Positions 38,494 to 64,000 of a stretch of 64,000 nt of DNA are shown in pieces (position 1 is the stretch's first letter; each line of letters starts with the position of its first letter). Position numbers and translations under genes: made by a program. The notes under the pieces are model-generated. The model worked only from the letters and a program-made list of their open reading frames with translations, searched no databases and was not told where the DNA came from. This stretch comes from Candidatus Peribacter sp. (GTDB lineage: Bacteria; Patescibacteriota; Gracilibacteria; Peribacterales; Peribacteraceae). The DNA lies in contig JABIBA010000001.1 in assembly GCA_018652955.1 (NCBI GenBank), positions 28,751 to 92,750 of the forward strand, written 5' to 3'.

Positions 38494-41400
38494 TTATTTT
38501 CGTTTGCGCCTTATCCACGAGAATCCCGCAGCAGCTCCCGCACCAATCACTGCAACGGCAGCAGGCCCCGTATCTCCAATAGGAGCTTGCGACTGAACTA
38601 GTGGTTGCAACTGCGCAAGAGGTAGCTGGTAGGGGAGTTGTTGAAAGTTTGCTTGTCCTGGGAATTGAATGTTGGATCCAAACTGTGCATAGTACTGCGC
38701 CAAAAGTTGTTGCTGCTGTGTTTGATACTGGAAGTTTTGTCCTGCAACTTGTGTCTGCAGAGAAGAAGAGGAAGATGATTCGTCCGTTTCTATCCTGCAG
38801 AATCTATCACAACCATCTCCGTTTATACGACCGCTGTCATCACATTGCTCCGCAGAGTCTAGGACACCGTCACCACAGCGAGAGAGTGAACAGTCTGGGC
38901 GGCAAGCAGCATCTGGAGAAGAGGAGTTAAGAGCTCCTTTGTCACACTCTTCACCTGCATCAAGATTCCCATCACCACAACGAGTGGAGAAGAATCGGCA
39001 GTTGCGACATTGATATTCAAGAGAAGGGCTATGCGTGGATGGTTCACACTGTTCTCCAAGCATCGTTTGAATGCGACCATCGCCACAGATTCCAATCTCC
39101 AATAAGCACGTTGAGCTACAACCGTCGTTATCTCGTCGGTTTCTATCATCGCATTCTTCTCTGCCGGCTAAAATACCATCACCACAGATCGATGCTGAGG
39201 CTACAAGTGTTTGGGAGCGCTCTTCAAGAACACACTTAAAGCACCCATCTCCAGAGAATATATTGCCATCTTCACATTCCTCACCACGTTCTAAGAAGCC
39301 ATTACCGCAATAGGTACTATCAAGTAATTCTTGCCTACAAAGACCGCTGCATCCATCACCATTAATACTATTGCGATCATCACACTCTTCGGGTGGCTCA
39401 GTTATACCATTTCCACAGATCGCCACTGGTGTTTTATCATCAAGAACACGGATAATCTCTTCCTCAGCAAGAACTTGAGAAGGGGGATCTTTTCTGAAGA
39501 AACAATCTCGAACAGAGAAGCATTCACTCTCGCCTTTACCTGCAACAACAACACACGCAAGGCCTTGGCAGATACTGTGTTCATTACAGCCAATATCATC
39601 TGAGCATTCATTACCACCAGACCCTGGAACTTCTGTACAAGCACCTCTTTTACATTCTAAGTGCGTTCCAACGCCACAATTCATAGCAATGTTACATTCA
39701 TCCTCATCTACCCCTGATACCTGAATACACTGATCTTCAAAACAGACGCCTTGTGTTTGAGATGGTGGAGGTGGGGGATTGCGACCCCTACGAACAACAA
39801 TAACAGTGCTGCCGCCATCGTCGTCATCGAAGTCATTATCAGAATCACCATCGTCACCGTCACCATCGCCATCGTCGTTATCATCATTATCGATGATACT
39901 ATCATCGTCATCTCCATCTCCATCGTCGTCATCTTCATCAAAATTGGAACGCTGAGATGAGAATGGATTACTCATACCAGAAGAAAGTGACAGAGAGATA
40001 TCCGAAGAAGAAATAGAAGAATCGGAAGATGTGCTATCGGATTCGGATGAAGAGCTACTTGATGAACTAGTAGAAGGAAGAGAAAGAAAAAGGCTTAAAT
40101 TAGAAGATGAAGAACTTGAGCTTGAGGAACTAGAGGAGCTGGATGAAATTGAAGAACTCGACAAAGAGAAGGCGACCAGAGAAGAGGAAGATGCTTCCGA
40201 TGAGACCTCTGAAGTAGTTGAAGATAGAGAAAAAGAAATCTGTGAATCCAATGAAGAGTTTACAAGCGAGAACTGAGAGAAGGAAAATGAGAAAGCGAAA
40301 GAGTTTTCAGAGAACTCTGATGATAAGAGCTCGGAAGAGAACGCTAGTGAGCTTGTAACAGAAGAGGATGAAGAAGAATTTCCTAGTGAAGAAGAGGATG
40401 AAGACACTGAATTTGTAGAAGAACTAGAAGAAGAGGAGGAGCTTGAGCTCACGGCAGAGCTAGAAGCTTCACTATTCGGAGGAGGTGTAACAGGAGGACC
40501 ACACTGGCAAGTTGTTGCATTGCAAGAAAGTCCATCCAGGCAAATATTATTAGTCGGCTCACACTGTTCACCAGGATCTATCTCCCCATTGCCGCATAAA
40601 TTAGAAGAGGTAGAAGATGTCGATGAGGTAGAGGCGATGCTATTAGAAGGGCCGTTACATGCTGCATCACACTGCTGCTGTGTTTGAACACCATTACAGT
40701 TACTTGTTACACCAACTGCAATGCACGAACCGGTATTACTATTACACACGAGAATAGGACATGAGGCATTATCATCGTCATCATCTCCACCCCCAGATTG
40801 CCCACCGCCAGCTGCACCACCGTTGCCTGAATTTTGGCAGCCTACAATCGGAACAATCCATGGCTGATGAATACACACACCTGTTCCGGAATTACAGTAA
40901 TCCTGTGTGCACTGTGTATTATCTTCACAGACAAAGATGTTTCCTCTACAGATTTCAGCTGCACATCCGGGGAGGCTATCACAATTAGGTCCTCCAACAG
41001 TACCACCATTCCCGTCGTCATCATCATCAGATGTGCTACATCTCCATGTATTAGTTGTAGCACATCCATTAGTGCAATTTTGATAGGTCTGATTTGCTGC
41101 ATCATAGCAATCCTGTAAATCTTGTGCATTCGTGGAATTCACATTGCAAGCACTGTACTCATTTGTATACGTTGCATAACACTGATTCCAGCACGTTTGA
41201 TTTATGTTGGCTGTACATCGACCAATAGCGCAGCAAATTGGGTCACCACTTCCATCTGCACCTGGACACTGCTCTTGTGTAGAAGGAGATCTACATGGTG
41301 TGCATGCACCAGTAGAGACGTTACAATATCGATTTGGCGCACTGCATTGAGAGTCGTTTGTACAGGGAAGATTTACACACTGCCCAGAGGAACAGGTCGT

Positions 41401-42492
41401 ATGCCCTGTGCATGCATTTGCATAGGTACAAAAGTTATTTGCACAAGAGGAAGTCTTACACTCAGCAGCTCTACTAGGACAGTCCCTTGCTCTATCACAT
41501 ACAAAACAATCTGGATTGTGCGTGACTTGCCCATCTCCATTTCTATCGGTATCAGCGATGCCACAACCACATATACCTGGATTATCTTTAGTATCATCAT
41601 CAGGACAATAATCTATACCGCAATCTACTCTACAAACATTGGGTGGTTCCTGGCGACCACATGGAATACCTGGAATGCAAACCGATTGCACTTCACCATT
41701 ATCACAGATTCCATTTCCACAGTACGTGCACTCACTCGAACATTGATCCGGATTTACTCGCAAATCATTTGAACCATTAAATTGAGAATGGTTATCACAA
41801 AGCTCACCATTTTCTGCTTGAACTACACCATCACCACATGCTGTACAATCATTTCGACAATCTGCATTCGCGTTAATAAGATCATTGCGACCAGGCTCAC
41901 ACGTTTCGCCATCTGCATAATCTACTGTGCCATCGCCGCATCGCTTGCAATTGGATCTACAAACAGCAGTACGAAAGTCCACTCCGGTACCACTGACATT
42001 ATTTCCTCCTTCATCACAGTTCTCTGGAGTTTGTGTAGCACCATCTCCACAGTAAGCGCATCCTGTAATACCCGATCCTGGAGCTCTGCAGGCATTTCCT
42101 GCAGGATTATTATTACCTGTACCTGCGTAGTCACACGTCTCTCCGCTCTCAAGGATTCCATTTCCACAAACTGGCAAGCCTCCTCCGCTCGTTGGAATAC
42201 ATTCACATGCAATAGAACTTATAGCGCTGCAGACAGTATTAACAGGACAAGTTGGGCATATGGTATCTACAGAATCACTTATACAAATACCTTCGCTGCA
42301 TGTACCACTTCTACATTCGTATGTGTTAATACATGCCGCACCATTGGTCATACTTATGCAAACCCCAGATTGAGCAATGAGATAAGCTTGAGACCCATCT
42401 CTCTTAGAATTTACTAGTACAGCACTTAGAATAAGTAGTGCGCAAAGTGAAAACCAACGTAAAGATACAAGTAATTTCATATTACCGTCCAC
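38494..42492 (-). CDS. Giant surface protein: Cys-rich repeats, poly-Ser region, Asp-rich region, DUF4215-type repeats, GDTGP C-terminal signal
   Basis: 1332 aa; N-terminal hydrophobic segment; many CGNGxxExGExCD repeats; long Ser tract; C-terminus IGDTGPAAVAVIGAGAAAGFSWIRRKRK; AAGGAGGT upstream. Confidence 0.88.
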   Translation of the reverse strand: MDGNMKLLVSLRWFSLCALLILSAVLVNSKRDGSQAYLIAQSGVCISMTNGAACINTYECRSGTCSEGICISDSVDTICPTCPVNTVCSAISSIACECIPTSGGGLPVCGNGILESGETCDYAGTGNNNPAGNACRAPGSGITGCAYCGDGATQTPENCDEGGNNVSGTGVDFRTAVCRSNCKRCGDGTVDYADGETCEPGRNDLINANADCRNDCTACGDGVVQAENGELCDNHSQFNGSNDLRVNPDQCSSECTYCGNGICDNGEVQSVCIPGIPCGRQEPPNVCRVDCGIDYCPDDDTKDNPGICGCGIADTDRNGDGQVTHNPDCFVCDRARDCPSRAAECKTSSCANNFCTYANACTGHTTCSSGQCVNLPCTNDSQCSAPNRYCNVSTGACTPCRSPSTQEQCPGADGSGDPICCAIGRCTANINQTCWNQCYATYTNEYSACNVNSTNAQDLQDCYDAANQTYQNCTNGCATTNTWRCSTSDDDDDGNGGTVGGPNCDSLPGCAAEICRGNIFVCEDNTQCTQDYCNSGTGVCIHQPWIVPIVGCQNSGNGGAAGGGQSGGGDDDDDNASCPILVCNSNTGSCIAVGVTSNCNGVQTQQQCDAACNGPSNSIASTSSTSSTSSNLCGNGEIDPGEQCEPTNNICLDGLSCNATTCQCGPPVTPPPNSEASSSAVSSSSSSSSSSSTNSVSSSSSSLGNSSSSSSVTSSLAFSSELLSSEFSENSFAFSFSFSQFSLVNSSLDSQISFSLSSTTSEVSSEASSSSLVAFSLSSSSISSSSSSSSSSSSSSSNLSLFLSLPSTSSSSSSSSESDSTSSDSSISSSDISLSLSSGMSNPFSSQRSNFDEDDDDGDGDDDDSIIDNDDNDDGDGDGDDGDSDNDFDDDDGGSTVIVVRRGRNPPPPPSQTQGVCFEDQCIQVSGVDEDECNIAMNCGVGTHLECKRGACTEVPGSGGNECSDDIGCNEHSICQGLACVVVAGKGESECFSVRDCFFRKDPPSQVLAEEEIIRVLDDKTPVAICGNGITEPPEECDDRNSINGDGCSGLCRQELLDSTYCGNGFLERGEECEDGNIFSGDGCFKCVLEERSQTLVASASICGDGILAGREECDDRNRRDNDGCSSTCLLEIGICGDGRIQTMLGEQCEPSTHSPSLEYQCRNCRFFSTRCGDGNLDAGEECDKGALNSSSPDAACRPDCSLSRCGDGVLDSAEQCDDSGRINGDGCDRFCRIETDESSSSSSLQTQVAGQNFQYQTQQQQLLAQYYAQFGSNIQFPGQANFQQLPYQLPLAQLQPLVQSQAPIGDTGPAAVAVIGAGAAAGFSWIRRKRK

Positions 42493-58756: not shown

Positions 58757-61700
58757 CTACTTTCTTCTTCTGCGAATCCAACTAAGTCCACCGGCAGCTC
58801 CAGCACCGACAATTGCAACCGCAGCAGGTCCTGTATCTCCTACAGGTCCTTGTTGCTGTACAATTGGGCGAAGCTGAGCAAGTGGTAGCTGGTATGGAAG
58901 CTGTTGGAAGTTTGGATACTGAGGGAAGCCATACTGCTGAGTATTTTGGAATTGCGGGAACGCAGTGTTTGAACCTAGGGGATACTGTGAATTCTGAAGA
59001 GGATCAGTCGTATCTGAAGCAACCTGTGTAGCACCTCCTTCAGTTTTACAGTACCTATCACATCCATCACCATTGAGACGGTTTCCGTCATCACACAGCT
59101 CTGCAAGGTCTATAGTGCCATCTCCACAACGAGCAGCGCTACATCCAGGCCTACAGAGAGCATTTGGAGCTGCAGAGTTGCGACGGCCATCATCACATTC
59201 TTCTCCAGGGTCAACGTTTCCATCTCCACATGTAGTACTTAAGAAACGGCAGCGAACACACTGGTACGGAAGAGTGGAATCATGTGATGAGTTTTCACAC
59301 TGCTCTCCAAGAAGCGTTTGCACGACACCATCTCCACAAATTCCAATCTCAAGAAGACAGGTAGAACTACAACCATCATTGTCTCGTGCATTGCTATCAT
59401 CACACTCCTCACGGTCTTCAAGTGCTCCATTTCCACAGATACTTGCAGCAGCTACGAGAGGTTCTTCTTTGCAGTTGCTATCACATCCATCGCCATTGTC
59501 TCGGTTGCCATCTTCACATTCTTCACCTGGGTTCTTTATGCCATTTCCACAGAATGTGTCGCGAACAATAGGGGAGAAGCACTTGCCTTCGAGACATATC
59601 TTTTCTCCAGGGCAATCTCCATCGATGTTACAGGAATCTGGAGAAGAAACAGAGAACGCTGATGACGAACTATCCGGATCACACTGAGAATCAATCTTGC
59701 AACCATGTGCTCCAGAGCCTTGGACTTCAAGGCAGCGACCATTTACACACTCAGCATGTGTCCTGATACCACATTCAAAGAATGGGCTACAAGCATCTAT
59801 TCCACCTCCAGGAATAAGTTCACATGCGCTATCTAAACATGCAAGATGGAACTCCGTTCGGAATGATGAGCTTAAGTCCCCAAAGGAGAATGAACTTGAA
59901 GAAGAAGAAATATCAAATGATAAAGAAGACGATGAAGATGAAGATGATACTTCTAAAGAAGAGGAGGATGAGCTAGGCGACACACAATCAAATTCTTCGA
60001 AGAGGCTACATAGGTCTTCTCCCGCTCCCTCGACGAGGGCACAGGCATTGTTCCTACATTCAAGATGGAACTCTGGAATTGGGATACTACTAGATAGACC
60101 AAGCGAACTCGATGAGCTACTTCCGCCGTCACACTCATCATTTCCAGAACATGCATCTTCTCCAAAGATTTGAAGCTCTATGCACTGATTTAAAATACAA
60201 TCAGATCGCAAACTCAAACAATCCTCATTGGCATCACACGTATCTTCCTCGGCCCCAATAGCAACAATACATTGCTCCTCGAAGCACTCAAGGTGAATGT
60301 CGTCTCTACAGTCATCATCATCTGTACAGGTATTTGACCCCGGACCGAAGAAAGACTTGCACTGCTGGTCTTCACATTCTAAGTGTGTTCTCTGCTCACA
60401 TTCAAAGTCGATCGTGCAATCGTCTTCCTGAGCACCAGGCAAGAGTACACAGGCATCGTCTTGACACTCAAGATGGAAATCATCTGTACAGTCAGCCTCA
60501 GATCCACACTCGTCATCACCTGGACCGTCGACATAAATGCACTGCTCTAGTACGCACGAAAGGTGCTCTACTATGCCTTCACAGTCAGCATCTACTACAC
60601 AATCATTCGGTCCTGCTCCAGTAACAAGAGTGCACTGCTCATTCTCACATTCTAGATGCGTATCTCCTCCACACCCAAACCGAACACTACATTCATCGTC
60701 GGCATCTCCAGCGACAAGAACGCACGCATCACCTTCGCACTCAGTGTGGAATAGAGACTCACAATCTGTATCAGTGTCACAGAGATCAACTCCTCTACCA
60801 GACGCTTCTGTGCATTGTAAATTTTCACATTCAAGGTGAGTGCAATCGGAATCAACGAGACAGAGGTTTTGCCCTCCACCCTCTACAAGGATGCAAGCAT
60901 CATCTTGGCAATCCAAGTGAGCACACTCACTATCATCCGCACATTCATCATCTCCGACTCCATAGGTGACAACACATGCAAGGCCGCGACATTCTAGATG
61001 TGTATCAGGATCGACACAGTCTGCAATGTTAAGACACTCATTGTCACCAGGCCCATCAAATAGTACACACTGCTGCTCATCACACTCTGTGTGCTGCCCA
61101 CAATCAATTGTAGAAGAACACTCGTTTTCTCCAGATTCCAGAGAAATCAAACATATGTTTCCCTCGCAAATCGTGCGCCCAGCACTGCATCCAAGGAATG
61201 GATCACAGAGGTCTTCGCCACCACCAGGAACTAGTATGCAACTTTCCAAAACGCAATCTAAGTGGAACTGACCTTCTTCACATTCACTATCGTTATTACA
61301 CTGGTCTAACTCATCACCGGGAACAAGCTGACAAGCATTATCTCTGCATTCAAAGTGGAATTGAGTTTCTGTACAGCTTGCATCATTAGTACATCTATCA
61401 GGTTCGTTACCTGCAACTGGGACACAGGCATTTTCTCTACAATCAAGATACGTATCTGGCGTTCCGCAAATGTCATCTGATGTACACAAGTCCTCTCCGT
61501 CACCTGGGATAAGTGTGCACGCTTCGTCTCGGCATTCGAGGTGGAACAGGCAGTCATCTGTAGTTCCACAATCATTTTCCCCTGGAGTATTTACGATGAC
61601 ACATTGATTAGCCTGACACTCCGTGTGCTGGCCGCAATCAATAGCCGAAGAACATTCATTAGGTCCAGGATCATTAACGATGACACACATATTCAGCACA

Positions 61701-64000
61701 CAAGCGAGACGCTCAGTATTACATCCGAGAATTACATCACATTCATCATCGTCTTCTCCTGCAACAATAACACACGCGTTATCTTGGCACTCTGTATGGA
61801 AACCAGCACAATCTGCATTGGATCCACAGGTATTTGGTCCGGGTCCAGGAACCACAGCGCACATGTTTGAAACACACTCAAAATGTTCTTGAGGTCCAGG
61901 TCCAGGTCCAGGAGTTGGAGCAGGTCCGGGTCCAGGTCCAGGTGGACAAGTAATAACACAATTTATACTGCTTTTTGGGCCACAAATCTTTCCATCATGT
62001 GTTCCACCTTTTTCGAAGCACTCTTCCTTTGGAATACAGAATGTTCCAGGTTCACACGGTCCAGGGCCAGGGCCAGGACTTGGCGGACAACCAATAAGTG
62101 GGTCGCACTGATTAGGTCCTCCACCTGCAACAAGCATACAAGTGTTCCAAATACACTCTAAGTGAACAGGGGGCTTACTTGTAGAAGAGCTAGAAGAAGA
62201 ACTGGAACTGCTTGTTGGTGGTGTACAGTTAGGAAGACATTCCGTTGTAGAGTCATAACACGTCCAGTTTCCCGAAGGACAACAAATTGCTTGCTCTCCA
62301 AGACAGTTCGGATGTGTATTTAGGTCACACGGTATTGAAATTGCAGAACTCGAATAAGAACTAGAACTAGAACTCGATGATGAACTTGGAGGGCATGGAC
62401 ATTCCAAGAAAAACTTGAAATCAACATCTAGTGCTCCACCATTAGGGGCAACACTAATATTAATATCGTGATCTCCAGGAGTTACGGTAAACGAACCAGT
62501 GTCCCATTCTTTTACATATATAGGTCCGTTACAACTAAAGTCATTGTAATTATCATTAATCGCTGCCCTAAAAATACTAGGGAAATTACCAGGATTAGTA
62601 ATGCTGACATTCGCATTGTATGTAATTCCTCGAAACTCCGCAGATATTTTACAACCCGCCATTGGAACATTGATAGTATATGTTCTGGTTCTCGTCCCGC
62701 AGGTAAAGTTCGATGTACTCGGAGGTCCTGAACATCCTCTCTTTCCATTCTCAAGACATTTTGCAGAGTACCTCTCCAAGAGAACTGGAGACTGCCCACA
62801 TGTAAGTGCACTAGAACTCGAACTCGAACTTGGTGAACTAGAACATTTTGGAGGAGGGGCGCACCGGAAAACATGTCCCTTGCCACCCTTAGTACCAACC
62901 ATGACAGCGCCACCGTGTCCGCGTACAGGTTCTACTGCAACAGACACTCGCTCGGTTGGGTCGTAGACAACACGGCTTTCAAAGCCTGGGAAATCAAAAC
63001 TATTTATAAGACCAATAATCTTATTATCCAAACGAACATCAGGCTCACTGAGTGTACGCACAGGAGGAACAGGTGCACAGAAACCACTACGCACTACAGG
63101 TCCTGGGTCTATTTGATGTCGTCTTCCATTTGCCAAACAGCCATAAGTTTTACCTGCACTGTAAGAAATATTTATAAAGTCTAGATTATCTAGATCTCGC
63201 AGTACTTTGCACGTGATAGGGCCAGGTCCACACGCATTAACAACCTGAGCTGTCATCGTTGAAGTATCACTTCCTGAGAAGAAACTGAGTAGACTCCCAA
63301 AGAAATTTTTAAAGTTTGTAATAAATCCTGGGGAATCATCACGCATTGTTACAACAGGAGCGGTAGGAATAGTTCCATCCGGATACGTTCCACTGACACT
63401 TGGATCCCAACAGTTCCAGCTACCATCTGGGCAACACCGCGTATTCGCTCCAGGAACACAGGTTGGAGGAGGGGTAAATGGACACATGTTCGGGAACGAT
63501 GTACTGGAGCTAGAAGACGAACTACTACTTGAACTCGTCGATGGAATCGTAAATGAGAAGGAACTCGAAGAAGACGAGCTGCTACTTGAACTCGTCGATG
63601 GAATCGTAAAGGAGAAAGAGTTTGAAGAAGATGAGCTGCTACTTGAACTCGTCGATGGAATCGTAAAGGAGATAGAGCTTGAAGAAGACGAACTCGTAGG
63701 GCCAGGACCTGGGCCAGGAGTCCCAGGGCCAGGAAGATTCACAGGACAAATACACTGTGTTACTGCTCCAATATCTACACACATATTACTCCAGCAAGAG
63801 ACCTTATCTCGAACACATTTTCCAGCAGGAATACAACGGAAAGATCCATCGCTTTCGAAGAAGCAGTAGTTATTTACCAAAGGTCCTTGGCAAGGATTTG
63901 GATTTGGCGGAGCACACTGATTATCCATTGTACAAAATCCAGTTCCAGGGCCAGGGCCAGAGACTGTACCAGGGCCAGGGCCAGAGACTGTACCGGGGCC
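58757..64000 (-). CDS. Giant Cys/Ser/Gly-Pro-rich surface protein with GDTGP C-terminal signal, truncated by right window edge
   Basis: ORF track starts at an internal Met (63928), but the frame is open to 64000 (GPGTVSGPGPGTVSGPGPGTGFCTMDNQ...). 24 four-Cys repeats, poly-Ser linkers, DUF4215-type repeats, C-terminus VGDTGPAAVAIVGAGAAGGLSWIRRRRK. Confidence 0.9.
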   Translation of the reverse strand, partial: GPGTVSGPGPGTVSGPGPGTGFCTMDNQCAPPNPNPCQGPLVNNYCFFESDGSFRCIPAGKCVRDKVSCWSNMCVDIGAVTQCICPVNLPGPGTPGPGPGPTSSSSSSSISFTIPSTSSSSSSSSSNSFSFTIPSTSSSSSSSSSSSFSFTIPSTSSSSSSSSSSSTSFPNMCPFTPPPTCVPGANTRCCPDGSWNCWDPSVSGTYPDGTIPTAPVVTMRDDSPGFITNFKNFFGSLLSFFSGSDTSTMTAQVVNACGPGPITCKVLRDLDNLDFINISYSAGKTYGCLANGRRHQIDPGPVVRSGFCAPVPPVRTLSEPDVRLDNKIIGLINSFDFPGFESRVVYDPTERVSVAVEPVRGHGGAVMVGTKGGKGHVFRCAPPPKCSSSPSSSSSSSALTCGQSPVLLERYSAKCLENGKRGCSGPPSTSNFTCGTRTRTYTINVPMAGCKISAEFRGITYNANVSITNPGNFPSIFRAAINDNYNDFSCNGPIYVKEWDTGSFTVTPGDHDINISVAPNGGALDVDFKFFLECPCPPSSSSSSSSSSYSSSAISIPCDLNTHPNCLGEQAICCPSGNWTCYDSTTECLPNCTPPTSSSSSSSSSSTSKPPVHLECIWNTCMLVAGGGPNQCDPLIGCPPSPGPGPGPCEPGTFCIPKEECFEKGGTHDGKICGPKSSINCVITCPPGPGPGPAPTPGPGPGPQEHFECVSNMCAVVPGPGPNTCGSNADCAGFHTECQDNACVIVAGEDDDECDVILGCNTERLACVLNMCVIVNDPGPNECSSAIDCGQHTECQANQCVIVNTPGENDCGTTDDCLFHLECRDEACTLIPGDGEDLCTSDDICGTPDTYLDCRENACVPVAGNEPDRCTNDASCTETQFHFECRDNACQLVPGDELDQCNNDSECEEGQFHLDCVLESCILVPGGGEDLCDPFLGCSAGRTICEGNICLISLESGENECSSTIDCGQHTECDEQQCVLFDGPGDNECLNIADCVDPDTHLECRGLACVVTYGVGDDECADDSECAHLDCQDDACILVEGGGQNLCLVDSDCTHLECENLQCTEASGRGVDLCDTDTDCESLFHTECEGDACVLVAGDADDECSVRFGCGGDTHLECENEQCTLVTGAGPNDCVVDADCEGIVEHLSCVLEQCIYVDGPGDDECGSEADCTDDFHLECQDDACVLLPGAQEDDCTIDFECEQRTHLECEDQQCKSFFGPGSNTCTDDDDCRDDIHLECFEEQCIVAIGAEEDTCDANEDCLSLRSDCILNQCIELQIFGEDACSGNDECDGGSSSSSSLGLSSSIPIPEFHLECRNNACALVEGAGEDLCSLFEEFDCVSPSSSSSSLEVSSSSSSSSLSFDISSSSSSFSFGDLSSSFRTEFHLACLDSACELIPGGGIDACSPFFECGIRTHAECVNGRCLEVQGSGAHGCKIDSQCDPDSSSSAFSVSSPDSCNIDGDCPGEKICLEGKCFSPIVRDTFCGNGIKNPGEECEDGNRDNGDGCDSNCKEEPLVAAASICGNGALEDREECDDSNARDNDGCSSTCLLEIGICGDGVVQTLLGEQCENSSHDSTLPYQCVRCRFLSTTCGDGNVDPGEECDDGRRNSAAPNALCRPGCSAARCGDGTIDLAELCDDGNRLNGDGCDRYCKTEGGATQVASDTTDPLQNSQYPLGSNTAFPQFQNTQQYGFPQYPNFQQLPYQLPLAQLRPIVQQQGPVGDTGPAAVAIVGAGAAGGLSWIRRRRK
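63525..63695 (-). repeat. 57-nt tandem repeat, 3 copies (coding)
   Basis: ctacttgaactcgtcgatggaatcgtaaa recurs at 63525, 63582 and 63639 (period 57); encodes SFTIPSTSSSSSSSSSS units. Confidence 0.9.

Follow-up and report, generated by a model that had tools for sequence, protein, structure and literature searches.

The analysed window, a 64,000-nucleotide stretch of a Candidatus Peribacter contig, ends in a gene for a giant protein with a regularly spaced cysteine repeat. This raises the question of whether the repeat belongs to a named family, where else it occurs and what it might do. The open reading frame (W1; 58757-64000, minus strand) encodes an acidic, Cys-rich surface protein of at least 1747 amino acids, 162 of them Cys; its net charge is about -175. 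The length is a minimum value, as the frame is open at its 5' end and overruns the end of contig C8 (92,750 bp), which coincides with window position 64000. The gene neighbours are ordinary: a penicillin-binding protein, a secretion ATPase, a pseudouridine synthase, and a Tyr-tRNA synthetase.

Regular-expression and profile matches located 24 units of the form H-x2-C-x4-C-x10-C-x5-C in W1 (59681-62161, minus strand), the number originally predicted. Twenty-three have the Cys spacing 4-10-5, and the sole variant, LECRNNACALVEGAGEDLCSLFEEFDC (59984-60064, minus strand), has 4-10-7. A leading unit (62087-62161) is followed by a run of 20 (60131-61882) and three trailing units; the array has no higher-order period, and no lag stands out. 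Beside the array lies a different Cys module, CNIDGDCPGEKICLEGKC (59537-59635, minus strand), which is not one of the 24 units. C-terminal to the array, profile matches placed a block of DUF4215/TIGR02232 (myxo_disulf_rpt) repeats with approximate limits 59021-59548 (minus strand). The protein ends in an anchor, PNFQQLPYQLPLAQLRPIVQQQGPVGDTGPAAVAIVGAGAAGGLSWIRRRRK (58760-58915, minus strand), recognised from the translation and a comparison of tails, which consists of a GDTGP motif, a hydrophobic stretch and an Arg/Lys tail (58760-58840). The three further units predicted in a paralog were also recovered by the regular expression, at 39502-39750 (minus strand). This paralog (W2; 38494-42492, minus strand) has 1332 amino acids, with Ser-rich and Asp-rich linkers, a DUF4215 block, and a C-terminal anchor of the W1 type (38494-38652, minus strand).

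The unit comprises about 26 residues with the signature H-x2-C-x4-C-x2-V-x-G-x-G-x-[ND]-x-C-x4-[DG]-C. The Cys pattern of the original prediction held, but the motif proposed there had overlooked a His three residues before Cys1, which is the most distinctive residue and is conserved like the glycines (91%). The length given there, about 25 residues, fits the unit itself, while the repeat period including linkers is 27-31 residues. Across 290 distinct canonical units, drawn from the source genome, its relatives and 97 stretches of public genomes, conservation followed H(91%)-x2-C-x4-C-[VI]-x-V(73%)-x-G(93%)-x-G(92%)-x-[ND](91%)-x-C-x2-[DN]-x-D(66%)-C. The spacing 4-10-5 occurred in 317 of 346 units. 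When the residues of the array region were shuffled 2000 times, the mean number of matches was 0.0185 and the maximum 2, against 23 observed. All four Cys were kept in 404 of 404 distinct full-length profile matches from the source genome and elsewhere, a count in which strongly degenerate copies could be missed by scoring below threshold. As none of these matches lacked a Cys, co-loss was uninformative about disulfide pairing. The boundaries of the unit are fixed by lone copies that lie between Pro/Thr-rich linkers, such as the one in a Micrarchaeota protein (L050), and the occurrence of single, isolated units establishes H-C1-C2-C3-C4 as the true phase. When 44 archaeal and 40 bacterial proteins were aligned over their full length with MAFFT, the conserved block was the unit.

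The source genome contains about 64 units in seven genes. Six of these share a C-terminal block in which DUF4215 repeats are followed by QLPYQLPLAQLQPL and then by PxGDTGPAAVAVIGAGAAAGxSWIRRKRK. A 1154-amino-acid protein with a single unit (L027:3851-7312, plus strand) has no C-terminal anchor. The GDTGP tail terminates 14 proteins of the genome (L153-L166), and it was found in 14 of 16 sampled genomes of the same family but in none of 364 other genomes of the phylum, which identifies it as an inherited family trait. It resembles a sorting signal, one not yet named. In one same-family genome, a 7015-amino-acid open frame has a GDTGP-type tail at its end (G016:C1:135433-135564). The unit itself is patchy (11 of 56 genomes of the family, 14 of 380 of the phylum); as most genomes of both lack it, the lifestyle does not depend on it. 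Copy numbers are lower bounds, because the ends of contigs C8, C2, C14 and C16 (window position 64000; L004, L026, L028) cut genes of the protein family. At the end of C2, a 428-amino-acid frame (L004:6456-7739, plus strand) has a signal-peptide N-terminus and a final module 78% identical at the amino acid level to the first 74 residues of W1. This frame is possibly the missing N-terminus of the W1 gene, with which its orientation and the common module agree; as the overlap is not identical, it may instead be a paralog.

To place the unit among sequenced microbes, we searched one genome per species (84,980 species, 257 billion bases) with a codon-neutral pattern of its core signature. This yielded 97 stretches, which were assigned to taxa by record title. 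CPR bacteria contributed 43 of them (Peribacteria, Peregrinibacteria, WWE3, and many Parcubacteria groups). Archaea contributed 47, of which 43 were titled as DPANN or an allied lineage (Micrarchaeota, Woesearchaeota, Pacearchaeota, Aenigmatarchaeota, Nanoarchaeota, Diapherotrites, and Altiarchaeales) and four merely as "archaeon". Four more were titled merely "bacterium", and two came from other taxa, an Anaerolineales bin and a Methanosarcinales bin, either of which could be mis-binned. A match in Aliiroseovarius (L109) was judged to be a chance match. CPR bacteria and DPANN archaea are a minority of the species in the scanned collection. Three putatively viral IMG/VR contigs match the unit pattern, and two IMG/VR contigs classed as viral (L144, L145) carry an identical 228-amino-acid protein with a hydrophobic N-terminal segment and one unit. 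A tblastn search for phage or plasmid carriage with the array gave no match.

The proteins that bear the unit have hydrophobic N-terminal segments, and their complete C-termini are often LPxTG-like in CPR, of the GDTGP type in Peribacteria, and a TM segment followed by Lys/Arg in DPANN. Their co-domains, which include PKD, CARDB, CarboxypepD_reg, DUF4215, subtilase, and CBM96, are typical of cell surfaces. Three DPANN unit proteins (L051, L054, L080) share a soluble C-terminal motif, xxGxxxxEIKxxLxxxGWP, and have no membrane anchor. Since each domain joins the same module to anchors and partners of its own, movement of the module rather than of whole genes is favoured.

The resemblance between CPR and DPANN units could alternatively reflect convergence on a short disulfide motif rather than common descent or transfer. 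The unit is indeed very short, the closest cross-domain pair has 18 of 26 residues in common, and the differing anchors and co-domains would suit independent origins. However, the two consensus sequences are nearly identical by position (DPANN/CPR: H88/H91, V82/V66, G94/G91, G95/G90), and about ten specific positions, among them the His and the two Gly, agree across domains at identical spacing. Other phyla also have Cys-rich proteins, yet they did not show the motif (a single chance match across 257 billion bases), and the patchiness within the phylum fits transfer. We therefore regard convergence as unlikely, although it is the rival that fares best.

The original prediction also stated that the repeat belonged to no named family, and this held in every comparison made. 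No Pfam or NCBIfam model matched the W1 units above its curated cut-off. DUF4215 and TIGR02232 were not matched within the 24 units, and the isolated array (60128-61885) had no Pfam match at E ≤ 1. The units were thus ruled out as DUF4215 (PF13948), whose matches, like those of TIGR02232, are confined to the C-terminal block, as the predicted distinction from DUF4215 implied. The two kinds of repeat co-occur in W1 and are alike in being acidic, extracellular, disulfide-type repeats of large surface proteins; they differ in Cys spacing and motif, which in DUF4215 is CGNGxxxxGEECDDGN...GDGC. The acid_disulf_rpt model NF033662, likewise a short acidic double-disulfide repeat, matched two archaeal proteins that also bear units (L121 and L138), but there it covers a separate CNDGVDNDCNGLTDC-type segment upstream of the units, and it has no match in W1 at E ≤ 10. 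Membership of EGF, WAP, TIL and similar families was defined by a Pfam match over the cut-off; these have 6, 8 or 10 Cys per domain against four in the unit, and only weak matches with E ≥ 0.005 were obtained (EB 0.011-0.023, WAP 0.13, EGF_PEAR1L 0.0052). A search of PDB sequences returned chance-level matches only, among them Scytovirin (E 0.34 over 14 residues). Foldseek, which is weak for domains so small, found no PDB match for either of the AlphaFold2 models described below. A significant match to a known Cys-rich family, named in advance as the outcome that would count against novelty, did not occur.

The closest approach to a named family was DUF7107 (PF23416), which leads to a second alternative, that the unit is a diverged, phase-shifted form of an already modelled Cys-rich module of the C-x5-C-xn-C-x4-C type (DUF7107, WAP-, Dickkopf/colipase-, or EGF-like). 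Read in the shifted phase C3-x5-C4-x(4-9)-C1'-x4-C2', the 4-Cys pattern of the units resembles that of DUF7107, and triples in some relatives gave weak matches, with 16 of 75 members at E ≤ 1 (best, E 1.3e-5). A real DUF7107-like module adjoins the array; the best match in the source genome falls there, at CNIDGDCPGEKICLEGKC, and not at the units (17.4 bits, E 0.008, below the cut-off). Against this, DUF7107 matched none of the 24 W1 units, its placed matches elsewhere stayed below the 24.6-bit cut-off, and the isolated single units do not follow the shifted phase. The His and VxGxGx[ND] are absent from DUF7107, as from every family matched over its cut-off. These points make descent from such a module improbable. 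We conclude that the unit represents a disulfide-type mini-repeat family which is new and has no name, although its general kind is known, and whose distribution across CPR and DPANN is unusual.

A fold prediction for tandem units, as suggested originally, was run with AlphaFold2 on units 16-18 (60395-60658, minus strand), using a 75-row alignment. The model had a mean pLDDT of 83.8 and predicted a beta-hairpin and a one-turn helix for each unit: Cys1 and Cys2 lie in the two-strand hairpin, a Gly-rich loop follows, and one helical turn lies between Cys3 and Cys4. An independent model from an archaeal-only alignment of 28 rows had a matching layout (pLDDT 84.0). With a pTM of 0.39-0.40 for the three units in both models, the models do not define how successive units are oriented to each other, and a flexible, beads-on-a-string chain is as possible as a rigid rod.

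We also compared W1 with its homologue in a sister species (G003, L030). The dN/dS ratio was 0.14 over 448 aligned codons and 0.23 in the array part. Thus, where a disulfide-bonded rod under selection had been predicted, the disulfide-structure part is supported by the invariant Cys, these ratios and the confident two-strand-plus-helix fold, whereas "rod" is not, given the pTM values. In the alignment with this homologue, a gap takes in the variant unit and parts of the Ser linkers, showing that array and linker lengths differ between species. At the end of contig C14 (L026:1835-4045, minus strand), two near-identical 90-amino-acid superrepeats of three units each have a dN of 0.04 and a dS of 0.85; they have been kept alike as protein while their DNA diverged, mostly synonymously.

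Variation of this kind could suggest that the arrays serve not for attachment but as passive and variable decoys on the surface, or as a shield that keeps off phage, predators or proteases. Copy number and Ser-rich linkers do vary between sister species, and strain variation of such proteins has been noted for Peribacteria (PMC4736985). Selection on the units, however, is purifying and not diversifying, and the unit is common to two domains with different phages. On this evidence a decoy role is doubtful, about as much so as the phase-shifted origin considered above.

Features of an extracellular repeat of the disulfide type were found together: invariant paired Cys, export features, and oxidative folding enzymes. 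The source genome encodes three DsbA-like proteins, with the CxxC sites CPAC, CRYC and CPFC, and three sortases; VKOR was not found in it, which counts against the oxidation step proposed below. Binding or storage of metal in place of a structural role, with the His, Asp/Asn and Cys coordinating one ion per unit, would be suited by the conserved His (91%), Asp/Asn15 (91%), Asp/Asn20 and Asp22 and by the strong acidity of W1. It is nevertheless unlikely, as invariant paired Cys in an exported protein with DsbA-like enzymes fit disulfides better and no metal-binding family was matched over its cut-off.

The reading we lean towards, with moderate confidence, is that the units serve episymbionts as a stalk or adhesion module that is secreted, stapled by disulfides and anchored to the wall, and that has spread between CPR and DPANN as a module. 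Each unit would be a secreted mini-domain held by two disulfides, with a predicted beta-hairpin (Cys1, Cys2) followed by a Gly-turn and one helical turn (Cys3, Cys4). Units occur singly or in tandem, joined by linkers rich in Ser, Pro/Thr or Gly, in proteins with features of export and surface anchoring. After export the chain would be oxidised outside the membrane by the DsbA-like thioredoxins, and a sortase or a related enzyme would then attach it to the envelope. The putative anchor would be the GDTGP motif with its hydrophobic stretch and Arg/Lys tail here, an LPxTG-like signal in other CPR, and a TM segment with a basic tail in DPANN. The array could then provide a protease-resistant, length-adjustable stalk, a sticky surface attaching to host or neighbour cells, or both. 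Transfer of the unit as a module, and not of whole genes, between CPR bacteria and DPANN archaea may account for its distribution.

A bolder proposal, which we put forward tentatively as less probable than the stalk or adhesion module itself, sees in the unit a mobile building block for epibiotic life, exchanged between CPR and DPANN and fused to each domain's own anchors and partners, so that both build attachment or surface stalks with it. Host dependence of most of these lineages, represented only by MAGs, is itself putative. If the proposal is true, two unrelated radiations of nano-sized microbes make attachment or surface stalks from one part. The signature marks a surface module that, as known, is almost confined to CPR and DPANN, which belong to different domains and are small-genome, mostly uncultivated and probably host-dependent. 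Of what goes beyond the original prediction, namely the conserved His, the C-terminal anchor and this distribution, the last is the most interesting part. How CPR and DPANN cells attach to hosts is largely open, and an extracellular part that both share and that is easy to recognise brings this question within reach of tests. The analysis also adds an unannotated repeat for protein family libraries and a tail, GDTGP, by which 14 surface proteins of a single genome can be recognised as a set.

Several elements of this picture have precedents. In DPANN, lineage-specific extracellular families of unknown function have been noted, as have possible bacterial hosts for some Woesearchaeota and Pacearchaeota (PMC8204110). 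For Ca. Peribacter riflensis, large Cys-rich extracellular proteins were described and a role in attachment was proposed (PMC4736985). That organism belongs to the same bacterial class, and its large exported Cys-rich proteins have weak similarity to Myxococcus Cys-rich repeats; the main text of that report defines neither a repeat unit nor a fold, and gives no anchor signature and no link to archaea (PMC4736985). A literature search, with most subscription journals outside its scope, found no paper naming the repeat family or its CPR and DPANN distribution. Large Cys-rich proteins of Peribacteria and the attachment idea were already known, while the repeat family and its distribution appear to be new within the literature searched. 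Repeat-array adhesins and stalk proteins combine a signal peptide, tandem modules, and a sortase-anchored C-terminal tail. Compared with these, the proteins described here differ in module fold and Cys content, have GDTGP in place of LPxTG in the Peribacteria lineage, and are only putative adhesins, but they are alike in their signal peptide, tandem modules and sorting-signal-like tail.
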